From positions 1-40,452 of the forward strand of contig WGFU01000029.1 in the NCBI GenBank assembly GCA_015492075.1: a stretch of 40,452 bases of DNA, in the 5' to 3' direction. Origin of the DNA: Gammaproteobacteria bacterium. GTDB taxonomy: Bacteria; Pseudomonadota; Gammaproteobacteria; GCA-2400775. Positions 1-23,239 of this stretch are shown here, piece by piece. The notes under the pieces are model-generated. The model did not search any database. It saw only the letters and a program-made list of their open reading frames with translations, and was not told the origin of the DNA. A program made the translations under genes and the position numbers. Within the stretch, counting starts at the first letter, position 1. Every line of letters begins with the position of its first letter.

Positions 1-453
1 AAGATCGAGCAATTGCTGGATCGTATCGTGGATGCAGAATCAACGGCTGTCATCAGCGCCTATGAAAAACGTATCGGAAAACTCCAGCTCGAAAAACAGA
101 TAATGCAGGAAAAAGTCACCAATTGTGGCCGTCCGTTAAGAGACTTTGATGAAAGTTTTCGAACCGCGATGGATTTTCTCTCAAACCCGCATGAACTCTG
201 GGCTTCAGGGCGTATTGAAGACCGTCATGCAGTGATGAAACTCACTTTTGCAGACAGATTGGCGTATGTGCGTGGAGAAGGTTTTCGAACCCCCGAAACC
301 ACCTTACCTTTCAAGGCTTTAGGTAGCTTTTGCGGGGGTGAAAACAAAATGGCGCGCCCGACAGGAGTCGAACCTGTGACCTTCGGCTTCGGAGGCCGAC
401 ACTCTATCCAGCTGAGCTACGGGCGCTTATGCAAATGTTGCAGCGCAATATAG
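1..453 (+). CDS. Large serine recombinase, C-terminal fragment (5' end outside window)
   Basis: The frame is already open at base 1, so this is the tail of a longer gene; the first in-window TTG (13-15) is not a start. The visible part has a charged coiled-coil-like helix (about residues 10-40), then the segment FLSNPHELWASGR and the EGFRTPE / FKAL motifs typical of the C-terminal region of large serine recombinases from proteobacterial integrative elements. The catalytic serine domain would lie upstream, outside the window. The last 35 or so codons run antisense through the tRNA-Arg gene and stop at TAG 451-453, so the extreme C-terminus is dictated by the tRNA sequence. Likely role: integration and excision of an element lying to the left, using the tRNA 3' end as attachment site. 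Family call is by motif recall; the integration role is inferred. Confidence 0.75.
   Translation, partial: KIEQLLDRIVDAESTAVISAYEKRIGKLQLEKQIMQEKVTNCGRPLRDFDESFRTAMDFLSNPHELWASGRIEDRHAVMKLTFADRLAYVRGEGFRTPETTLPFKALGSFCGGENKMARPTGVEPVTFGFGGRHSIQLSYGRLCKCCSAI
350..426 (-). tRNA. tRNA-Arg (anticodon CCG)
   Basis: Reverse complement folds as a 77-nt cloverleaf. Acceptor arms GCGCCCG / CGGGCGC pair perfectly (420-426 with 354-360). The D-arm has AGCTCAGCTGGATAGAG, the anticodon stem is TCGGC/GCCGA with loop CTCCGAA (anticodon CCG, reading CGG), and the T-arm has GGTTCGACTCC. The discriminator is G and the 3' CCA is encoded (350-352). The tRNA 3' end abuts the recombinase gene, the usual geometry of an integrated element. 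The antisense strand reads as a plausible peptide (MARPTGVEPVTFG...), a well-known false protein in databases. Confidence 0.97.
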
Positions 454-469
454 TAGCAGAAACGCCTGT

Positions 470-2608
470 TTATCGGGTTGGATTCTTATCGAGAAAGCCA
501 TAGTGCTGAATACCTTCCAATACTCCCTCGGCATATTGCCCCTCGGCAAAGTAAATCTGTTCCCGGCCACGCAGTTTTTTTAGCTCGGGGCTGTGATTGC
601 CGACGACGACACCCAGGGTGTGCCCACTTAGCATTTCTTCATCATTACCCGAGTCGCCTGCCACTAATACCTGATCCAGTGGAAACCCCCATTTCAAGGC
701 GACATGACGTACCGCTGTACCTTTGGAGGTGCGGATCGGCAGGATATCAAGATAGGCCTGGTGTGAATAAATCAGTTTGACGTGGATATCTTTTTGACGC
801 AGGTGTTGGCGAATTTCTCGTATTTTGGGGGCCTTTTTAGGGTCAACATTAAAACTGATTTTATGTCGGCGCTGCTCGCCGGAATGTTGTAACTTAAGCC
901 CGCTAAACTCTCTCATGGCATCATAGACCGCGCGCGGTTGCCAGCGATAATCATTATGCTGTTGCCAGCCAAAATCTTCGGTGAGCTTGCTGCCATAGCG
1001 AATCTCGCTGCCCACCGAAGTAATAAATACATCAGGCGTGGGAGCACCCCATTTTCTCAATTCGCGCAAGGTACTCTCAATTGTGCGCCCCGTGGCCACG
1101 CCAAAGGCAACTCTATCACCCATACAGCGAAGCTGATCACTTAATTTCCTTAAGGCGGCGTTGTCACCCACCAGGGTATTATCAATATCACAAACGAGTA
1201 AACGCTCTGCTGTTGCCAATCTGCTTTTCGCAACAACGGTGCGTGTAGCTTGCTGATGTTTACTGATACGCTCCTTGACGATATTGATATAGCTATCCAC
1301 ATGCCCCGTCCATGTATAATGCTGGGCAACACCCGCTATTCCGTTAAGCGACCATTGCTGCCAGGTCGCTTTATTGCTGATCGCTTTAAGTATCTGCACA
1401 GACATATTTTTGCTGTCCAGCGGGTCGATGAGTACGCCGTTTTTGCAATGAGCCAGAATGTCACGCGGGCCACCATCGTTAGGCGCAATAATAGGCAGGC
1501 CACTGGCTGCGGCCTCGAGCAGCGTCAAACCAAAAGGCTCAGTCAACGCTGGATTAACAAACACGCCTCGGCTTTGTGCAGCAAGACGATACAGCTCAGG
1601 CACATCATCAGCTCGGTGCTTTTTCGGATAAGCCACCAATCCGTGAAGGTCATAGTAGTCGATTAGTAATAATAACTCTTGCAGTACTCGCCGCGAAGTT
1701 TTCTCCATCGACATGATATCTTCACGCTCACCCGCCACTATCACCAGGTTAGCCTTTTTTCTTAGCGCTTGATTTTCGCCATATGCCCTGACCAAGGTCG
1801 CAATATTTTTGCGTGGATCCGCTCGCGATATCGTCAGCACCATTGGCTTGTCGGGGTCTTTCAAAAAACGAGAAAGTTCTGCCTCAATACTGGTGTTTTT
1901 ACGAAGCGAAGTTGGGGGAGAAAACCGAGTTAGATCGACACCCGGGGGAATAACCGATATTCGCTTGGGAGTATAATTATCGTAAATCTCATATTGCTCT
2001 TCAACCTCTTGCTGGGTGCTGGCAATAACGGCAGCGGCATTATCCAGCGCCATCTCTTCTGCCTCGATACGCTGCGTCATGGCATATTGTGTTTCTATCG
2101 CATGAGCGCGCAAACCTTTATCGAGCAACCGCTGCCGCTTTACACGGCCGAGAGAATGGCCGGTATGCACCATGGGTACGCTCAGCAAACTCGAAACCGC
2201 TGATGCAACATAACCGGCATCGGCATAATGGCTATGAATAAGATCAGGAATACGGCCGATTTTTTTAACATGCTGTAAAGTGGCATCAGCGAAACTATCG
2301 AGGTAAGGCCATAAAGCCTCTTTACGCAAGTAACGCTTCGGCCCGCATGCAAGACGAACAATATTGGCGCCTTTAGCCAAAGGCTCTGTTTGCGTCGCGT
2401 AGCCTGGATCGAGCTTGTTTGAAAATACCTGGCGTGTCAGCAAATCTACACGCTCAACGTCCGGGTGCTGAGCCAACGCAGTGGCCAATTCCAACACATA
2501 CTTGATTTGGCCGCCGGTATCGGCATCACGCCCCAATTCCAAATTGTGCGCGCGAATCAATCCATGAATGCTGATTAACTGTATATAAAATCCATGTTGT
2601 TTTGACAA
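470..2608 (-). CDS. Sucrose-phosphate synthase with C-terminal HAD phosphatase domain
   Basis: Makes sucrose-6-phosphate from UDP-glucose and fructose-6-phosphate, and probably dephosphorylates it. The N-terminal two thirds is a GT-B glycosyltransferase of the SPS/GT4 type: IHGLIRAHNLELGRDADTGG near the start, HSHYADAGY, VHTGHSLGR, and the nucleotide-sugar motif TEPFGLTLLEAAASG. The last 220 or so residues form a HAD IIB domain with DIDNT (DxDxT nucleophile), a conserved Lys in TSKGTAV and GDSGND, so the phosphatase residues are intact and the protein may be bifunctional. I prefer TTG at 2608, 1 nt after the fructokinase stop, because the family N-terminus begins there; a GTG at 2680 would add 24 unrelated residues inside fructokinase. 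Neither start has a strong ribosome site. Co-transcribed with the upstream kinase. A compatible-solute role is inferred. Confidence 0.88.
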   Translation of the reverse strand: MSKQHGFYIQLISIHGLIRAHNLELGRDADTGGQIKYVLELATALAQHPDVERVDLLTRQVFSNKLDPGYATQTEPLAKGANIVRLACGPKRYLRKEALWPYLDSFADATLQHVKKIGRIPDLIHSHYADAGYVASAVSSLLSVPMVHTGHSLGRVKRQRLLDKGLRAHAIETQYAMTQRIEAEEMALDNAAAVIASTQQEVEEQYEIYDNYTPKRISVIPPGVDLTRFSPPTSLRKNTSIEAELSRFLKDPDKPMVLTISRADPRKNIATLVRAYGENQALRKKANLVIVAGEREDIMSMEKTSRRVLQELLLLIDYYDLHGLVAYPKKHRADDVPELYRLAAQSRGVFVNPALTEPFGLTLLEAAASGLPIIAPNDGGPRDILAHCKNGVLIDPLDSKNMSVQILKAISNKATWQQWSLNGIAGVAQHYTWTGHVDSYINIVKERISKHQQATRTVVAKSRLATAERLLVCDIDNTLVGDNAALRKLSDQLRCMGDRVAFGVATGRTIESTLRELRKWGAPTPDVFITSVGSEIRYGSKLTEDFGWQQHNDYRWQPRAVYDAMREFSGLKLQHSGEQRRHKISFNVDPKKAPKIREIRQHLRQKDIHVKLIYSHQAYLDILPIRTSKGTAVRHVALKWGFPLDQVLVAGDSGNDEEMLSGHTLGVVVGNHSPELKKLRGREQIYFAEGQYAEGVLEGIQHYGFLDKNPTR

Positions 2609-3899: not shown

Positions 3900-5732
3900 C
3901 TACTCAACGGTAACGGACTTCGCTAGATTGCGCGGATGGTCGACATCAGTGCCCTTAAGCACGGCAACGTGGTAAGCCAATAGTTGTAAGGGTACCGTAA
4001 ATACAATAGGCGAGATAACATCATCGGTCGGCGCCACATGTAACACTTCAACATTAGGCCCCGAACTGACTCCGGACTCGGAATCGGCAAAAACAACCAG
4101 CTCGCCGCCGCGAGTGCGCACTTCCTGTAAATTGGATTTCAGCTTTTCGAGTAAACTATTATTCGGTGCTATCGACACCACTGGCATATTGGCATCGACC
4201 AGGGCCAAGGGACCGTGTTTGAGCTCACCCGCGGCATAGGCCTCGGCATGGATATAGGAAATCTCTTTTAACTTTAACGCGCCTTCCATTGCTACCGGGT
4301 AATGAGCCCCGCGACCGAGAAACAAGGCATGCTCCTTATTGGCAAAGCGCTCAGAAAGTTGCTTGATTTGTTCGTCAAGGCCAAGCGCGTCTTCGAGCTT
4401 GCGGCTAAGGCTGCGTAATTCGTTAACCAGGTGCGCTTCGGTTGCATCATCAATTTGATGGCGGCGACCTAACGCGATCACCAATAAAAGCAGTGATACC
4501 AATTGGGTGGTAAACGCTTTGGTCGAGGCAACACCAATCTCGGGACCTGCGCGTGTCATTAAACACAAATCGGATTCTCTAACCAGCGAGCTTTCTGGCG
4601 CATTACAAATCGTTAACGAATGACCAAAACCACGTGTCTTGGCTTCTTTTAAGGCGGCCAGCGTATCGGCGGTTTCACCTGACTGGGAAATCGTCACCAA
4701 TAATTGGTTTTTACGCGCAACCGGTTTGCGATAACGAAACTCGCTGGCAATCTCAACATTACAAGGTATACCGGCAATAGCTTCAAACCAGTAACGCGCT
4801 AACAAACCTGCATGATAACTTGTACCGCAGGCGATAATATTGACGCCTTCTATCGTGTCGAATATCTCACTGGCACCATGACCGAAACTTTCTTCCATCA
4901 CTTTCGTCTGCGTAATGCGGCCTTCCAGTGTTTGTGTAACGGCATAGGGTTGCTCGTGAATCTCTTTTAGCATGTAGTGGCGATAGCCATTTAGCTCAAC
5001 TGCGGCACTTGTCAGCTGACTAAGATGCTCTGGGCGCTTAACCACCTTGCCTTGATTATCATAGATCGTTACACCATCAAGGCTGATGCAGGCAAAGTCA
5101 TCATCCTCAAGAATAATAAAGCGGCGAGTAACGCCAATCAGCGCCGTCATATCTGATGCCAAATAGTATTCGCCATTACCGATACCAATAACCAACGGGC
5201 TACCACGCCGCGCAGCAATAATTTGCTTAGGGCTGCGCTGGCTCACAACAGCCAAAGCGAACGAACCACCAAGACCTTGAACTGCCATTTTGACTGCCGT
5301 CAAAACATCATGATCTGCATCTTTAAGATGCATATGAATCTGATGCGCAATAACTTCAGTATCCGTATCCGAATCAAAGGCGTAACCAGCCTTCTTTTGT
5401 TGCGCCCTTAAGGCTTCGTGATTTTCTATTATTCCGTTGTGAACAATAGCGATCTCATCGGCGCTAAAGTGTGGGTGTGCATTCGCCTCACTGGGAGCGC
5501 CATGTGTTGCCCAACGCGTATGAGCAATACCTAAAGTCGCGCCAACTTGTTCTGAGGCAATGCGTTGTTCCAGCTCTATTACCTTGCCTACTGCGCGGTA
5601 ACGCTTAATAGCGCTATTATCTACAATAGCGATACCTGCTGAATCATAACCACGGTACTCTAACTTCTTCAAACCAGCGATAAGCAGGGGAACGATGTTA
5701 TTGCTTGATACGGCTGCGACGATTCCACACAT
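3900..5732 (-). CDS. glmS: Glutamine--fructose-6-phosphate aminotransferase (isomerizing)
   Basis: Makes glucosamine-6-phosphate from fructose-6-phosphate and glutamine, the first step to UDP-GlcNAc for peptidoglycan and LPS. The start at 5732 gives MCGIVAAV, placing the catalytic Cys at position 2 after Met removal; the longer open frame to 5771 would bury this Cys and lies in glmU. An N-terminal class II amidotransferase domain (HTRWATHG, NGIIENH) is followed by two SIS domains (CGTSYHAG, SQSGETADT, ASTKAFTTQ) and the expected C-terminal tail DHPRNLAKSVTVE. Length of 610 residues is standard. The start is 1 nt from the glmU stop, so translation is probably coupled. No glmS ribozyme-like leader is possible in this 1-nt gap, and regulation is not evident here. 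Confidence 0.98.
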   Translation of the reverse strand: MCGIVAAVSSNNIVPLLIAGLKKLEYRGYDSAGIAIVDNSAIKRYRAVGKVIELEQRIASEQVGATLGIAHTRWATHGAPSEANAHPHFSADEIAIVHNGIIENHEALRAQQKKAGYAFDSDTDTEVIAHQIHMHLKDADHDVLTAVKMAVQGLGGSFALAVVSQRSPKQIIAARRGSPLVIGIGNGEYYLASDMTALIGVTRRFIILEDDDFACISLDGVTIYDNQGKVVKRPEHLSQLTSAAVELNGYRHYMLKEIHEQPYAVTQTLEGRITQTKVMEESFGHGASEIFDTIEGVNIIACGTSYHAGLLARYWFEAIAGIPCNVEIASEFRYRKPVARKNQLLVTISQSGETADTLAALKEAKTRGFGHSLTICNAPESSLVRESDLCLMTRAGPEIGVASTKAFTTQLVSLLLLVIALGRRHQIDDATEAHLVNELRSLSRKLEDALGLDEQIKQLSERFANKEHALFLGRGAHYPVAMEGALKLKEISYIHAEAYAAGELKHGPLALVDANMPVVSIAPNNSLLEKLKSNLQEVRTRGGELVVFADSESGVSSGPNVEVLHVAPTDDVISPIVFTVPLQLLAYHVAVLKGTDVDHPRNLAKSVTVE

Positions 5733-5733
5733 T

Positions 5734-7104
5734 TTATTTTTGCTTCTTTTTGAGCGGGCGCTGCCAACCACGCAGTGTGCTCTGTTTGGCGCGCGTCAGT
5801 GTTAACTCTCCCTCAGGCGCATCTTTATTGATGGTTGAGCCGGCACCGATTGTCGCATCTTTACCAATAGTAAGCGGCGCAACCAGTGCCGTATTAGACC
5901 CTATAAAGGCGTTATCGCCGATTATGGTTTTATGTTTATTGGCGCCGTCATAGTTGCAAGTGATGGTACCAGCACCGACATTCACCTCGCTGCCCAGCTC
6001 TGCATCACCAACGTAGCTGAGATGGTTAACTTTGCTGCCAGCACCAATCTCGGCATTCTTGGTTTCAACGAAATTACCGATCTTGGCTTTATTCTTTAAC
6101 ACCGTGCCAGGGCGTAATCGCGCAAAGGGTCCTATGTGACAGTCCTCACCTATAATCGAATTATCAAGAACACTGTGACTGTCAACATGGCTATGACTAC
6201 CTATTATGGAATCCTTGATAATACAATTGGCGCCAATGTGAACACCATCGGCTAAACTTACCTCACCTTCAAAGATAACATTAATGTCGATAACAGCATC
6301 CCGACCTACACTCAAACTGCCACGAATATCAACACGCGATGGATCAACCAGGGTGGCGCCATCTATCATTGCCCGCCACGCAGCTCGCTCTTGATAATAA
6401 CGCTCAACTGTTGCCAATTGCACTCTGTCATTGACTCCGAGAATCTCCTCCTCATCGTCGATTACCGATGCATAAACCGGCACGCCATCGGCAACTGCCA
6501 GGGCGATAATATCCGTTAGGTAATATTCCTGCTGGGCATTCGCGGCATCGATACGCGCATAGGTCGATCTAAAATAGCGCGCCGGTATGGCCATAATTCC
6601 GGTATTGATTTCGCCAACGGCAAGCTGCTCCAGACTGGCATCTTTATGCTCCACAATAGCCAACACTTGATCGTCAGCATCTCGGATAATGCGACCATAG
6701 CCATCCGGATCTTGTAACTCGCAGCTTAACAAGGCAATAGATCTGTCATCGCAAAAGCGCAGCAACTGCTTCAATGTTTGCGCTTGTATCAGCGGCACAT
6801 CACCATAGAGTACAAGCAGGGTAGTATGGTCATCAACCGAGGCCAAGGCCTGTGCAAGCGCGTGGCCGGTTCCTAATTGTTCGGCTTGCTCAACCCAGAT
6901 GATATCGTCGCCATCAACGACCGCCTTAACCGTGTCACCACCATAGCCGTGGACGACAATAATAGAATCAGGTTTTAGCGAACGCGCGGTATCGACGACA
7001 TGGCTTAGCATTGGCCGACCCGCGACGGGGTGTACCACTTTAGGTAAATTGGAACGCATGCGCGTGCCTTTACCAGCAGCTAAAATAACAACAGACAGTT
7101 TCAT
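5734..7104 (-). CDS. glmU: Bifunctional GlcNAc-1-P uridylyltransferase / GlcN-1-P acetyltransferase
   Basis: Performs the last two steps to UDP-GlcNAc: acetylation of glucosamine-1-phosphate, then uridylyl transfer from UTP. The N-terminal half is a pyrophosphorylase domain with the signature LAAGKGTRMRSNLPKVVHPV at about residues 8-27, plus LYGDVPL and GEINTGI. The C-terminal half is a left-handed beta-helix of hexapeptide repeats with the acetyltransferase motifs RPGTVL, GNFVETKNAEIG, HLSYVGDA and CNYDG. 456 residues is standard. ATG at 7104. It lies downstream of atpC on the same strand, the common gammaproteobacterial atp-glmU-glmS order, 120 bp after atpC with an inverted repeat between. 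Confidence 0.98.
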   Translation of the reverse strand: MKLSVVILAAGKGTRMRSNLPKVVHPVAGRPMLSHVVDTARSLKPDSIIVVHGYGGDTVKAVVDGDDIIWVEQAEQLGTGHALAQALASVDDHTTLLVLYGDVPLIQAQTLKQLLRFCDDRSIALLSCELQDPDGYGRIIRDADDQVLAIVEHKDASLEQLAVGEINTGIMAIPARYFRSTYARIDAANAQQEYYLTDIIALAVADGVPVYASVIDDEEEILGVNDRVQLATVERYYQERAAWRAMIDGATLVDPSRVDIRGSLSVGRDAVIDINVIFEGEVSLADGVHIGANCIIKDSIIGSHSHVDSHSVLDNSIIGEDCHIGPFARLRPGTVLKNKAKIGNFVETKNAEIGAGSKVNHLSYVGDAELGSEVNVGAGTITCNYDGANKHKTIIGDNAFIGSNTALVAPLTIGKDATIGAGSTINKDAPEGELTLTRAKQSTLRGWQRPLKKKQK

Positions 7105-7170
7105 GTAACTAAACAGATGAGTCCAGCAGGCTAATAGTAAAACTATAGCACGCCAGGCTAAGCAGGCAGA

Positions 7171-7205
7171 CTGTAGCGACTATCAATAACACCCTATCGC
7201 TACAG
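7171..7205 (-). terminator. Inverted repeat between atpC and glmU, possible attenuator
   Basis: CTGTAGCGA (7171-7179) and TCGCTACAG (7197-7205) pair perfectly around a 17-nt spacer, 20 bp past the atpC stop. A second alternative pairing, TATCAA (7181-7186) with TTGATA (7206-7211), overlaps it. There is no U-tract, so this may be an RNA-processing or attenuation hairpin separating the atp operon from glmU rather than a strong terminator. Confidence 0.45.
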
Positions 7206-7224
7206 TTGATAGATCAAACGGGGG

Positions 7225-7644
7225 CTAGCGCCGACCCCTAAGACGCTTGATGGCGCTGAGCTGCGCAACGGCCTGTGCCAGTTCAACTTGCGCTTGTGCG
7301 TAATCAATTTCAGCGGCTTTATCCTGCAGGGCACGCTCGGCTTCCTCTTTCGCTTGAATCGCTGCCGCTTCATCCAGGTCATGTGCACGTACCGCTGTAT
7401 CGCTAAGCACGGTAACTGCGTGTGGCTGAACTTCGAGCATGCCACCCGATACGTAGTAGAAGTTTTCTTCGCCATCCGGTGTGATAACGCGTACTTCACC
7501 CGGCTTAAGCTGAGTCAGAAATGGGGTATGACGTGGCAAAATTCCCACTTCACCCATCACTGCCGAGGCAAAAACACGCTCTGCAGGGCCTGAAAATATC
7601 GCTTCTTCAGCGCTTACTATGTCGACATGCATGGTCATAGCCAT
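7225..7644 (-). CDS. atpC: ATP synthase F1 epsilon subunit
   Basis: Central-stalk subunit that couples gamma to the c-ring and inhibits ATP hydrolysis. The 139-residue protein has the N-terminal beta-sandwich ([37 protein letters not shown]) and the C-terminal helical hairpin rich in Ala/Glu/Gln (about 90-139) that regulates the motor. ATG at 7644 follows AGGA at 9 nt; the ATGs at codons 3 and 5 are less well placed. It is the last gene of the atp operon, 27 nt after atpD. Confidence 0.97.
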
Positions 7645-7671
7645 AAATCTGCGTCCTGGTTTAAACCCTGA

Positions 7672-9066
<1,395 letters not shown>

Positions 9067-18905: not shown

Positions 18906-20798
18906 TCACGCACTCTCACTAAGGCCAACCTGCGTTTTCTTAAGATAGATACGCAAAACGGATAAGGCCGCTGGCGTTACACCGGATATACGCGCCATTT
19001 GTCCAAGGGTTTCAGGGCGTTGTTCGCTGAGTTTTTGACGTAGCTCTGATGACAGGCTGGTGACATTGGCATAATCCAGCGTCTTTGGAATTTGCATGGT
19101 TTCGTAATGTTTTTGGCGTTCAATTTCGGCTTTTTGGCGTTCAATGTAGCCCGCGTACTTAGCATCGATATCGATTTGTTCAATCACAGCAGCGTCTATT
19201 TCGGCAGTGTCGACACCAGCGAGACTCATTAATTGTTCATAACTAATATTAGGTCGTTTTAATATCTCACGCGCTTTGATTTTTTCTGTAAGCGTTGAAC
19301 CTAATAATTCCTCGACCTGTGCTGCATCTAATTTATTTGGATCTAAATCACATGCGTCGAGATCGGCGTTCACTTTAGCTAACTCTTCACACTTGGCGGA
19401 ATATTTCTGCCAACGCGCATCATTAATTAAACCAAGTTCTCGGCCTTTTTCCGTGAGACGCAAATCTGCATTGTCTTCGCGCAACAATAAGCGGTACTCC
19501 GCGCGACTGGTGAACATGCGGTAGGGTTCCAGGGTGCCACGGGTGACGAGATCATCGATCATGACACCGATGTAAGCTTGATCACGACCCGGACTCCATG
19601 CATCCAATTCGCGTGCTTGACGTGCGGCGTTTAAGCCGGCGATTAAGCCTTGTGCAGCAGCCTCTTCATAGCCAGTAGTACCATTGATTTGGCCAGCAAA
19701 ATAGAGGCCGTTGATAAATTTGGTTTCTAATGAGACCTTAAGGTCACGCGGATCAAAGTAATCGTATTCAATGGCATAACCTGGGCGCGTGATATGCGCT
19801 TTGGCAAAGCCGTCCATCGAACGAACAAAGGCCTCTTGCACATCAAATGGCAGACTGGTCGAAATGCCGTTAGGATAAACTTCGGTTGAATTCAACCCTT
19901 CGGGCTCGATAAACATTTGATGTGAGTCTTTATCGGCAAAGCGGCGCACTTTGTCTTCAATCGAGGGGCAATAGCGTGGGCCGGCACCTTCGATGGCGCC
20001 GGTGAACATGGGTGAATCTTTATAGCCTTGGGCGATGATGTCATGCGTGCGGCGATTAGTGCGGGCAATATGACAACTGATTTGTCGTGGGTGTTGAGCC
20101 TGATCGCCAACAAAAGAGAAAACCGGGCGCGGATCATCCCCCGCTTGCTCGTCGAGTTTTGAATAATCAATCGAACGGCTATCTATTCGCGGCGGTGTGC
20201 CTGTCTTTAAGCGACCGACTCGAAAAGGGTGTTCACGCAGCCGTTTTGACAAGGCATTGGCCGGCGGATCGCCCGCGCGGCCACCTGCGTAATTCGACTG
20301 GCCAATGTGAATGCGGCCACCAAGAAAAGTGCCAACGGTTAACACTACACATGGCGCATAAAACTCTACCGCCATTTGCGTGATAACGCCTTTTATGGTG
20401 TCACCTTCAACAATCAGGTCATCAACTGCTTGCTGAAAAATACTAAGATTTGGCTGTTGTTCCAGCGCGTTACGGATAAAGGCTTTATATAAGGAGCGGT
20501 CTGCCTGTGAGCGAGTAGCGCGCACGGCAGGGCCTTTGCTGGCATTGAGGCGACGAAAATGGATGCCGGCAGCATCGGCAGCGCACGCCATGACACCACC
20601 AAGCGCGTCAATCTCCTTCACCAAATGGCCTTTACCGATGCCGCCAATAGCAGGGTTACAGCTCATCTGCCCCAAGGTATCGATATTATGCGTCAACAAT
20701 AAGGTACGCGCACCGCTACGAGCCGAGGCCAACGCAGCTTCGGTTCCGGCATGGCCACCCCCTATGATGATGACCTCGTAATGGCGTTGTGGATTCAT
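18906..20798 (-). CDS. mnmG: tRNA uridine-5-carboxymethylaminomethyl modification enzyme MnmG
   Basis: FAD-dependent partner of MnmE that adds cmnm5 to wobble U34 of several tRNAs. FAD-binding [15 protein letters not shown] at residues 13-27, [28 protein letters not shown] and [11 protein letters not shown] are all present. 630 residues is standard, with the helical C-terminus that binds MnmE and tRNA. ATG at 20798. In this window it is separated from mnmE by four other genes, although the two usually adjoin. The 107 nt below its stop hold no clear terminator. Confidence 0.98.
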
Positions 20799-20911
20799 GG
20801 CAACAGACTACTGCTTAAATTTTGATCAGTTATTCAGTATGACGCGCGATAATAACCGGATTATCGATTGCTGGCTATTTTATCGGTCTTTTACAGGATT
20901 TTGCTATACAT

Positions 20912-20937
20912 AAAAAAAGCCCCCGAAAGGGGGCTTT
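20912..20937 (-). terminator. Rho-independent terminator after secreted protein A
   Basis: On the minus strand AAAGCCCCC (complement of 20929-20937) pairs with GGGGGCTTT (complement of 20916-20924) around a TTTC loop, followed by a run of seven T (complement of 20912-20918). It is 25 nt past the stop of the gene at 20962-21210 and is a textbook terminator. It is conserved with the second copy at 21422-21447. Confidence 0.92.
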
Positions 20938-20961
20938 AGTAGACCGAAGTCCGGGACTTTA

Positions 20962-21210
20962 TTAAGAACGGTAAGCGTTCAGACGACCTTCACTGCTAAC
21001 GGCAATCTGGGTGTCGCCTTTTACTACCTCGTCAGAGGGCGCATAAGCATTCAAACGGCCTTCAGCAGGTACTGTCACCTGCACTCCTGTCGATGCCGCT
21101 TCGTTGGTGTTGACTAGGGCGTAAGGACCAAAGTTACCCACAGTTGCGGCCTGAGCTGCAACAGAAGCGAAAAGAGTCAAGCCAGCAAGTGTCATAGAAA
21201 TATTTTTCAT
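20962..21210 (-). CDS. Small secreted protein A with duplicated EGRLNAY motif, unknown family
   Basis: I do not recognise the family. 82 residues with an apparent Sec signal peptide (residues 1-21, cleavage after AQA), leaving a mature protein of about 61 residues that starts ATVGNFGPYA. The mature part carries two copies of a Q-x-x-V-x-x-EGRLNAY motif (44-56 and 68-80), exactly 24 residues apart. No Cys, no membrane helix after the signal. The start at 21210 is fixed by GGAGATTGATC before the ATG, a leader shared with the paralogue at 21472. It has its own terminator, 25 nt below the stop. Function unknown; periplasmic or exported location inferred. Confidence 0.85.
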   Translation of the reverse strand: MKNISMTLAGLTLFASVAAQAATVGNFGPYALVNTNEAASTGVQVTVPAEGRLNAYAPSDEVVKGDTQIAVSSEGRLNAYRS

Positions 21211-21290
21211 GATCAATCTCCAAAAATTATAAAAAAATAAAAACCAAAATTAAGTTCAGGTTTAGTATCTATAAAATCTATCGATATGTG

Positions 21291-21307
21291 AAATTGTATT
21301 TATTTAT
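21291..21307 (-). promoter_or_regulatory. Conserved upstream element of secreted protein A
   Basis: The minus strand reads ATAAATAAATACAATTT. The same 17-mer, with one change, lies upstream of the paralogue (21804-21820), at nearly the same distance from the ATG (81 against 84 nt). A second shared block, GATTTTATASAT (S = G or C), lies nearer each gene (21267-21278 here). They look like promoter or regulator sites conserved after the duplication; I cannot assign a clean -35/-10 pair. Confidence 0.5.
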
Positions 21308-21421
21308 ACAATCAGTAGGTTTTTTCTAAATTGTGTGACTTGCTTTTATTCAGCGCACTGTTTCAGCGTATCTCGCCATCTGAAATACGTGCCAAATAGC
21401 GAGCTGGGCTTTATGACAGAC

Positions 21422-21447
21422 AAAAAAACCCCCAAAGAGGGGGCTTT
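21422..21447 (-). terminator. Rho-independent terminator after secreted protein B
   Basis: On the minus strand CCCCC and GGGGG (complements of 21439-21443 and 21429-21433) pair around a 5-nt loop, followed by seven T (complement of 21422-21428). It is the homologous structure to 20912-20937, with a weaker stem, and lies 25 nt past the stop of the gene at 21472-21720. Confidence 0.88.
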
Positions 21448-21471
21448 CGTGGACCGAAGCCCAGGACGTTA

Positions 21472-21720
21472 TTAAGAATGGTAAGCGCTGAAATGGCCTT
21501 CGCTGCTGGTAGCAAGCTCGGCAGCGCTCTTAGGCGCTTGGGCAGCAGGCGCATAGGCATTCAAACGGCCTTCGGCTGGGATAGAAACCTGGGTGCCAGT
21601 AGTCGCTGCGTGGTTGCTGTTCGCTTGTGCGTAAGGACCGAAGTTACCAACGGTAGCAGCCTGAGCAGAACCGATAAGCAAAAGACCAAAACCCGCTATT
21701 GCCATAGTGATGTTTTTCAT
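21472..21720 (-). CDS. Small secreted protein B, tandem paralogue of protein A
   Basis: 82 residues, gapless against protein A with 49 of 82 positions identical by my count. A Sec signal (1-21, ending GSAQA) precedes a mature ATVGNFGPYA start. The first motif copy (44-56, ending PAEGRLNAY) is preserved; the second has drifted to SSEGHFSAY (72-80). The mature linker (57-70) is Ala/Pro-rich here and charged in A. ATG at 21720 with TTGGAG upstream. The stop is exactly 510 bp from that of A. It lacks Cys. Family unknown to me; a possible structural or surface role is a guess. Confidence 0.85.
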   Translation of the reverse strand: MKNITMAIAGFGLLLIGSAQAATVGNFGPYAQANSNHAATTGTQVSIPAEGRLNAYAPAAQAPKSAAELATSSEGHFSAYHS

Positions 21721-21767
21721 AATATAAATCTCCAAGAGAAAGTTAAAAGTAAATGTATAAAATCAGC

Positions 21768-21787
21768 TTGCGGACAAGTATCCGCAA
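21768..21787 (-). repeat. Hairpin in the leader of secreted protein B
   Basis: TTGCGGA (21768-21774) and TCCGCAA (21781-21787) pair across a 6-nt spacer. It lies between the two conserved upstream blocks of protein B, in the roughly 27 nt that are absent from the leader of protein A, so it may account for different expression of the two genes. Confidence 0.45.
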
Positions 21788-21803
21788 AAGCCTTGTCTTG
21801 GTA

Positions 21804-21820
21804 AAATTGTATGTATTTAT
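21804..21820 (-). promoter_or_regulatory. Conserved upstream element of secreted protein B
   Basis: Minus strand ATAAATACATACAATTT, 16 of 17 identical to the element at 21291-21307 before protein A. The nearer shared block is at 21753-21764. Its placement 84 nt before the ATG matches A, suggesting common control of both genes. Confidence 0.5.
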
Positions 21821-21859
21821 CCTGTCATTAGTTTTTCTTAATGATGAATAGTTGCCGCG

Positions 21860-23239
21860 TTAATAGATCAACTGGGTATGCGAATAAGCTGAAAACCAAC
21901 CGAACCAAAAAGCCCGATGGGCAGGCAAGCGGAACAACTGTTTACCATCAGCGGCCTCTAAGCGACTTTCGCTCAAACGCCATTTCTGGCCACTTTCATC
22001 AATGGCAGTAGTGTTTTGATCCCAAGACTGGAAATGAACGCCTTGCGCATCGTAGACGCGATTCGCACCACTAGCATCGGTGAATACCACAAAGTTCATA
22101 TCTTCAACGCGGTTTTGATACACCGGGTGCCTGGCAAGATAATCTGCAGAGATTGCTAACGGTTTATCCGGGCTGTCAGCAAACAATAAACCCAATACCT
22201 CGCTCTTATTTTTTAAGCGGGTGTCTACTTTAGGCACGCCAAACATCAGTTTATCGGTGGCAAAATATTCTCTATACGCAACACCTTCATCATAATCACG
22301 ATTATGTCCCGTATCGAGTGAGAGTACTTTTGTTTGCGGGTGACGTCGTTTCCACTCGCGCCAGGTAGTGGTAACAATACTTAAACGCTCCAACTCAATG
22401 CCTTTGCCCACCAAAGGGCCGATGACGGGTTTACCCCATAGGGTATTCCACAACGATTGCGTCTTCTTGTCATACATGAGTTTGTTGGAACGATAGAGAA
22501 AACCACTGGTGCCAATGTCGTAGTTCTCACCGTCAATAACGGTGTGATACAAAATCATGCTACCGCAAAGAGTACAATAAACCCCCGCTACCGGCTTGCC
22601 ACCCACTTCATCAACAAACATTTCATGCCAGGCCATAATACGCTTTGGATAAGCGCGCGCATCACCATTCACCTCAACGGAAAAAACGATATGGCTATCG
22701 TCAAGGTAATCCGCATCATCAGCATCCACCATTTTTGGATGACGTAACGGTGGAATACCGTCTTGTTGTACACCACCCCAGACCACTTCATCGAGGCGAA
22801 TGGTTGTTTTTCTCTTATCACTAAAGTAACCCGCGAATAGTGGATCAATATATTGATAGAGTTTAGATTTAAACTGAGCATAGTGAGCGTAGTCATTTTC
22901 GGGCTGATTCCATAACCATTGCCGCCAACGCTGTATATCAAAACCGAAATTCTGCCCGCTATTTTGCTCTAGCAAGTTAACCAGATGCGTAACCTGTTTT
23001 CTATCACGAAGCAGTGTTATCACTTCAACCACCATAATGGCAAAACCCGGCTGCCAGTCAGTCTCGATTTTATTGAGCGCTTTCTTTATTGACTCCCTAT
23101 CAGTCCCTAATAAAGTTATAAACTCGTCCGCTGTTATGCCAACAACGTCGTCTTCGCTTTGCACAGTGGTGCTAATAAGCACTACCCCAACACAGACAGT
23201 AAACGCGAAGACCACGTTAGCAGCAATAAATCGTTTCAT
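21860..23239 (-). CDS. DUF3179 domain-containing exported protein
   Basis: 459 residues from ATG at 23239, chosen because a signal peptide (MKRFIAANVVFAFTVCVGVV...) starts there; the frame is open to 23308 but without a signal-like start. The DUF3179 domain lies at about residues 150-400: VNGDARAYPKRIMAWHEM, GVYCTLCGSMILY (CxxC at 222-225) and the WNTLWGKPVIGPL stretch are the family marks. The CxxC suggests metal or redox binding but the biochemical function of DUF3179 is not established to my knowledge. A helical N-terminal region (30-130) precedes it. Exported or membrane-anchored. Standing alone between small genes, with no operon partner evident. Confidence 0.85.
   Translation of the reverse strand: MKRFIAANVVFAFTVCVGVVLISTTVQSEDDVVGITADEFITLLGTDRESIKKALNKIETDWQPGFAIMVVEVITLLRDRKQVTHLVNLLEQNSGQNFGFDIQRWRQWLWNQPENDYAHYAQFKSKLYQYIDPLFAGYFSDKRKTTIRLDEVVWGGVQQDGIPPLRHPKMVDADDADYLDDSHIVFSVEVNGDARAYPKRIMAWHEMFVDEVGGKPVAGVYCTLCGSMILYHTVIDGENYDIGTSGFLYRSNKLMYDKKTQSLWNTLWGKPVIGPLVGKGIELERLSIVTTTWREWKRRHPQTKVLSLDTGHNRDYDEGVAYREYFATDKLMFGVPKVDTRLKNKSEVLGLLFADSPDKPLAISADYLARHPVYQNRVEDMNFVVFTDASGANRVYDAQGVHFQSWDQNTTAIDESGQKWRLSESRLEAADGKQLFRLPAHRAFWFGWFSAYSHTQLIY

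Follow-up and report, generated by a model that had tools for sequence, protein, structure and literature searches.

An attachment site very likely located inside the gene of a tRNA-targeting large serine recombinase, with a conserved native tail at the far end of related elements

Introduction

In Dehalococcoides, the gene of DsiB, a serine recombinase of the ssrA islands, overlaps attL at its 3′ end (McMurdie 2011, PMC3146451), and its stop codon lies outside the island or in the ssrA antisense. In the same work, it was speculated that full function of DsiB may require the circular form, or a neighbouring island that carries the lacking 3′ fragment. The archaeal suicidal (SSV-type) integrases, reviewed in PMC8371274, are tyrosine recombinases with the att site in their own gene, which is split into two inactive parts; according to a 2021 review, recombinases disrupting their own gene occur only in archaea. 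In mycobacteriophage BPs, attP lies within a reading frame, integration changes the C-terminus of the repressor by 33 residues and alters its behaviour, and the longer repressor form is degraded via an ssrA-like tag (PMC4557955).

To our knowledge, no large serine integrase has its attP inside the integrase coding region. As regards the joining of genes by excision, that of Tn916 joins the transfer genes to an upstream transcription unit, and the recombinase is not known to be altered by the joint. None of the titles and abstracts returned by our literature searches dealt with bacterial elements that target tRNA genes and carry a conserved recombinase tail at their opposite end; many subscription journals were outside the scope of this search.

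Results

A recombinase frame running through a tRNA-Arg gene

The window (the whole stretch of DNA analysed, 40,452 bases) is contig C29 from its first base, in a MAG of 1.65 Mb with 80% completeness. Nothing further is available to the left, and therefore only the 116 recombinase residues that precede the att core are present (Table 1). This part of the protein shows 49–93% identity to 15 aligned relatives. The core was placed by homology with the element ends of relatives and with attL, attR, and attB of Tritonibacter mobilis.

Table 1. Features at the left end of the window
Feature	Position	Strand	Remarks
Serine recombinase ORF	1..453	+	Open frame, 150 aa, 5′-open at the contig end
Large serine recombinase 3′ end	1..348	+	116 codons, element DNA, cut by the contig end; from similarity of relatives
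att core ATGGCGC (GCGCCAT on the tRNA strand)	349..355		Common to the element and the tRNA 3′ end; covers codons M-A of the recombinase frame
34 recombinase codons and stop	349..453	+	Past the core: host DNA, i.e., tRNA antisense and upstream flank
tRNA-Arg(CCG), integration target gene	350..426	-	ARAGORN; CCA encoded at 350-352
131 bases that also open contig C32 without mismatch (L002 1-131)	354..484		Exact overlap of contig ends

The initial annotation of the locus had proposed that the recombinase frame continues through a tRNA-Arg(CCG) gene on the opposite strand, and that integration at the tRNA 3′ end would supply its last 35 or so residues from host DNA. The first claim was confirmed, and the second is supported by relatives. 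The host-read residues are 34 (MARPTGVEPVTFGFGGRHSIQLSYGRLCKCCSAI), beginning with the ATG at 349-351 and followed by the stop codon at 453. Positions 1-355 very likely represent attL of an integrative mobilizable element with a recombinase that targets tRNA 3′ ends, an assignment that is part of the main reading discussed below. The far end of the window's own element was not found when the MAG was searched for a native tail, an empty answer that alone shows little.

The same junction in related elements

A first set of 20 relatives came from a scan of genome contigs. A full tRNA directly abuts the recombinase 3′ end in 18 of them; one of the two exceptions has a tRNA 3′ fragment (L009), and the other, which is eroded, has neither (L026). 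The targets in this set are tRNA-Arg with four anticodons, tRNA-Leu, and tRNA-Phe. A profile search on 385 genomes of the class of Rhizobium albus (G006) then gave relatives in 25 genomes at E 1e-8 or better, R. albus included, with 36 matches altogether. Among 29 further loci scanned, the tRNA is in place at 26 (ARAGORN found none in L077, L078, and L089), adding Val, Tyr, Ser, Thr, and Ala tRNAs to the target types. When 33 recombinase ends were read, 31 passed in the same phase into a peptide of the tRNA- or tmRNA-antisense type; the exceptions are L084, where the frame is lost, and L089, without a tRNA. Homologues ending before the tRNA at a conserved stop, named in advance as a refutation, were not met among the 20 and the 33 ends, barring the broken L026 and L084.

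The openness of the antisense tRNA frame is by itself weak evidence, because the stops of the relatives fall at many places, within the tRNA or well past it; the fixed spacing and the phase exceed chance. Since the stops are so scattered, the tRNA-derived tail does not look selected. The idea that the antisense-tRNA peptide is a conserved functional C-terminus was dropped, as the stop positions vary too much. A search with 118/144 positives returned mostly tRNA-antisense matches, the query having included the tRNA part, and these were not counted as relatives. The recombinase matches on Devosia and Phaeobacter plasmids look like fragments. A distant relative (L047 1180-1532, 31% identity) reads antisense into tmRNA, which could tie the recombinase family in habit to the ssrA islands.

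A separate observation concerns L009, where the intact tRNA is separated from the serine element by a 3.1-kb stretch (5350-8533) with a 45-bp repeat of the tRNA-Arg(ACG) 3′ part; this stretch may be another type of element that uses the same target. This repeat had first suggested an att identity block over the tRNA 3′ half, which we rejected because the repeat flanks the separate stretch and the core of the serine element is short.

An empty site within one species

Plasmid p2 of T. mobilis A3R06 carries an element of ~18 kb at tRNA-Thr, and in T. mobilis F1926 the site is empty: two adjoining stretches of that strain match L133 1-1938 (98.4% identity) and 20052-22501 (96.5%). The core GCACCAT is common to attL, attR, and attB. 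In A3R06, the recombinase open frame has only 282 codons. The direct repeat that the initial annotation expected on the other side of the element thus held in relatives, with an empty site in the same species, and it is only ~7 bp long, as a serine integrase would lead one to expect.

A conserved in-phase tail at the far end

At the far ends of the elements, past the ~7-bp core, we found an in-phase frame with the tail M[AV]....E[ST][SL]N.LF..L..W...L. This native tail, which goes beyond what had been proposed for the locus, is present in 19 of 29 related element sides (6/8 in a first set and 13/21 in a second), with 20 tail copies. The first set comprises sides from eight of nine relatives, G007 being left out with 4.3 kb available; the second comprises sides from 21 of the 36 profile matches, mostly on longer contigs. 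A DNA stretch ending in GTGCGCCA is common to five of the first eight sides. The sixth tail, that of R. albus at tRNA-Phe, was recognized when proteins were compared (41% over 27 residues, E 0.002); a mobC-like gene follows directly downstream of it. In the first-set tails, the recombinase frame runs on past the core for 34-36 residues to a stop; overall, the tail length is 25-44 residues. The three plasmid records examined, among 12 matched by relaxase, all have the native tail, one of them partial.

Five of the 19 tail sides were recovered by a profile built without them, with E from 2.5e-13 to 8.7e-6; one of these, G257, had already been read before the profile search. Among 26,212 frames, the profile matches below E 1e-4 are all on the expected strand, and all start at the core TGG except that of G257, where the core is altered. 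Against 4013 control frames, the best match of the tail profile had E 3.3.

The first ten tail codons act as a conserved DNA site and are uninformative on the protein. Past this att arm, codons 11-24 differ by 0.48, 0.32, and 0.64 at codon positions 1, 2, and 3, respectively (161 pairs, not independent; G243b was excluded for an insertion and pairs above 85% identity were skipped), and Leu16, present in 19/19 tail copies, is encoded by six codons. In the relatives, therefore, substitution in codons 11-24 is of the coding type.

The tail stop overlaps an ATG in 13 of the 20 copies, all in elements with a mobC-like match, and no ATG lies over it in the other seven. A mobC-like gene occurs in 16 of the 29 element sides, with the tail directly upstream in 15; in G161, it does not adjoin the tail. 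The terminal residues differ among tails, and the hypothesis that the conserved tail end is a degradation tag was rejected on this basis.

No recognizable tail was found in 10 of the 29 element sides. Less than 24 kb had been fetched for six of these, and four (G005, G008, G483, and G252) lack a tail despite 36-40 kb fetched. An intact attP, with recombinase and native tail in one piece, is absent from all 33 recombinase ends read. Viral contigs, scanned for the junction by sequence pattern and by protein, gave no intact one, only two recombinase loci without native tail; a junction search with a 76-residue query, in which the tail begins at residue 43, gave four records, all ending at or before residue 47. 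No phage match was found.

As an observation in its own right, one element (G379a) has two native-type tails 1.3 kb apart, at joined coordinates 22086 and 23446 of L099+L100, reversed. Nested or tandem insertions are a possible origin, and tandem copies could restore a tailed recombinase.

Recombinase identity and element content

In a full-length relative (L031:977-2548), the recombinase matches Resolvase (PF00239, 1.6e-23) and Zn_ribbon_recom (PF13408, 1.8e-9), while PF07508 reaches 18.6 bits, below its cut-off of 21.1. The domain make-up of the large serine recombinase family is thus shown in a relative, as no more than the final 116 residues are encoded in the window. For one relative, the structure of the integrated form was predicted, and the model is weak (mean pLDDT 73.5, pTM 0.34). 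In this model, the last helix ends at residue 503 and the core codon is at about residue 510; residues 500-525, which include the tRNA-coded part, have pLDDT < 50, as do four other short stretches. Among PDB structures, it comes closest to serine integrases, Bxb1 and PhiC31 among them, at TM-scores that are low (0.19-0.38).

Most proteins of one 23.7-kb element (G002) were searched. They include the recombinase, a VirD4-like coupling protein, a relaxase, and ArdA; the MobC/NikA match is weak, below the Pfam cut-offs, and the cargo matches models of type III restriction-modification, SIR2, HerA, and UvrD-like proteins. Relaxase and mobC-like genes are present in all six elements compared, with differing cargo, and mark the elements as mobilizable islands. 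In relatives, an integrase and a relaxase on a delimited element are shown, as expected for an integrative mobilizable element; transfer and excision are inferred. Five elements measure 23.3-30.6 kb and that of R. albus ~17.4 kb. In G306 and G349, the tail is only ~2 and ~5.6 kb from the tRNA/recombinase side and the recombinase frame is short, and these are remnants or very small elements.

A T-loop motif shifted by 5 bp

Using a regular expression, we found that the T-loop motif begins 19 nt from the core in 47/47 tRNAs. The expression was confined to the surroundings of the expected T-loop position, and the set did not include L009, L023 (on the same contig as L045), L026, and L065 (on the same contig as L019). 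In the far-end arms, the motif lies 24 nt from the core in 18 of 20 by regular expression, and the remaining two have the same register on reading. In tRNAs, the motif is hence 5 bp nearer to the core than it is in the far-end arms. For serine integrases, Rutherford et al. (PMC3783163) described a zinc-ribbon motif that lies 5 bp further inward in attB. The short core and the 5-bp shift agree with the large serine recombinase family, the zinc-ribbon reading of the motif being inferred. It is possible that the recombinase reads the T-loop via its zinc ribbon, as inferred from spacing with no binding data. If so, the many tRNA targets would be explained, the motif being common to tRNA genes.

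A fork between two contigs of the same MAG

Contig C32, whose start overlaps the window (Table 1), departs from C29 at the tRNA discriminator base and then continues into other DNA. The overlap looks like an assembly fork, possibly from an occupied and an empty site in one sample. In a genome of the same genus (L049), matches to the C29 flank (349-1876, 76%) and to C32 (59-311, 90%) lie around one tRNA-Arg; therefore, the left end of C29 represents the site with the insertion, and C32 the site without it. The discriminator base is G in C29 and L049 and A in C32 and the same-genus L052, so the two contigs could derive from different strains.

Separately, on C32 (L005), the segment at ~136-312, after the uninserted tRNA-Arg, closes with the tRNA 3′ end repeated. 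It is 90% conserved in L049, which diverges beyond it, and may be an old insertion remnant at the same hotspot.

Discussion

The reading that we consider very likely, with a probability of about 0.87, is that attP lies inside the 3′ part of the recombinase gene and that integration swaps a native tail for a tRNA-antisense tail; the circular form is inferred. On the circle, the recombinase gene would read through attP into the native tail of 25-44 residues, the stop of which would often overlap the start of the mobC-like gene, followed by the relaxase gene. The coupling protein, recombinase, mobC-like, and relaxase genes would thus lie in this order on one strand. Recombination at the CCA end of the tRNA would leave the tail, mobC, and relaxase at the other element end, and the integrated recombinase would acquire a new, unselected tail from the tRNA antisense strand.

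The sequences of relatives show the junction geometry, the short core, the empty sites, the in-phase tail of coding type, its coupling to mobC, and the 5-bp T-loop shift. The native tail of the window's own element is inferred, as is the translation of the joined gene in the circle. The proposal, already made for the locus, that integration and excision could change the recombinase C-terminus is supported and largely holds, on the basis of the ends of relatives. Its extension, that the form of the recombinase is coupled to the integration state, is supported as regards the tail exchange; a different behaviour of the two protein forms is inferred, with no difference in activity shown. That gene joining would raise the expression of the mobilization genes only after excision is likewise inferred.

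Among the alternatives, the one that survives best is a suicide variant of the main reading, in which the tRNA-encoded tail inactivates the recombinase and exit needs an enzyme from another copy or from an incoming circle. It remains possible, by analogy with the archaeal suicidal integrases (PMC8371274), and the two tails of G379a suggest repeated insertions. Against it, the predicted last helix ends before the core codon, and no folded domain seems to be cut, with the caution due to a weak model.

It is very unlikely that the overlap is incidental, i.e., that the recombinase merely lacks its own stop at attL, the tail is irrelevant, and the far end is an attP arm plus a mobC leader. In favour of this explanation, neither the length nor the sequence of the integrated tails is constrained, conservation in the first ten tail codons is that of a DNA site, and a Shine-Dalgarno-like sequence precedes the tail stop in 7/20 copies, including the five closest relatives. 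However, codons 11-24 present the third-position excess and conserve LF..L..W...L with varied codons, and tails without an adjoining mobC-like gene exist (G389, G379a, G306, and G161). Equally improbable is that translation starts at the core NTG and makes the far-end tail a small protein of its own rather than the recombinase C-terminus: the core codon is ATG, GTG, or TTG in 19/20 tail copies, but the tails read keep the phase of the recombinase frame across the core. In attR, moreover, the preceding 20 nt are host DNA that differs each time, so that no conserved ribosome site is found there, and G257 has CAA at the core.

Returning to the main reading, in which the tail is exchanged, the locus resembles DsiB in that the recombinase 3′ end overlaps attL and the stop lies outside the element. 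It differs in the target, tmRNA (ssrA) there and tRNA-Arg in the window, which therefore does not qualify as an ssrA insertion, and in that the relevant text of PMC3146451 does not show a native tail conserved at the opposite end. As in the archaeal suicidal integrases, the att site is inside the recombinase gene, which is met in the 19 tail-bearing sides of 29 with the joined form inferred; those are tyrosine enzymes with a split gene, whereas here a serine recombinase exchanges only a short tail. With BPs, the locus shares an attP in a reading frame and a C-terminus altered by integration, although in BPs the altered protein is the repressor, not the recombinase, and the tails described here share no terminal tag. 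The large serine integrases (A118/LI, Bxb1, and SPbeta; PMC3783163) are similar in domain make-up, in the short core, and in a zinc-ribbon motif whose position differs by 5 bp between attP and attB. Finally, as in Tn916, excision would join the mobilization genes to an upstream unit, with expression inferred, but the joint would here alter the recombinase.

A bolder reading is that attP in its own gene serves as a built-in state sensor of the recombinase. The circle form, with the conserved tail, would favour integration and be co-expressed with mobC and relaxase for transfer, and the tRNA-tailed form would have another directionality or none. Taking these three claims jointly, we lean slightly against them. 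If they were true, directionality and the coupling of excision to transfer would come from gene architecture, replacing a directionality factor or acting besides it.

The tail-swapping elements look like a widespread bacterial counterpart, built on a serine recombinase, of the archaeal suicidal integrases, with relatives in 25 of the 385 sampled genomes of the class of R. albus, that genome included. The native tail, here in tRNA-targeting elements, is a 3′ fragment of the sort whose existence had been no more than a guess for DsiB, and its exchange would explain the tRNA-antisense peptides that end the predicted recombinases of this serine-recombinase family. The two defined protein forms make the question of directionality testable.
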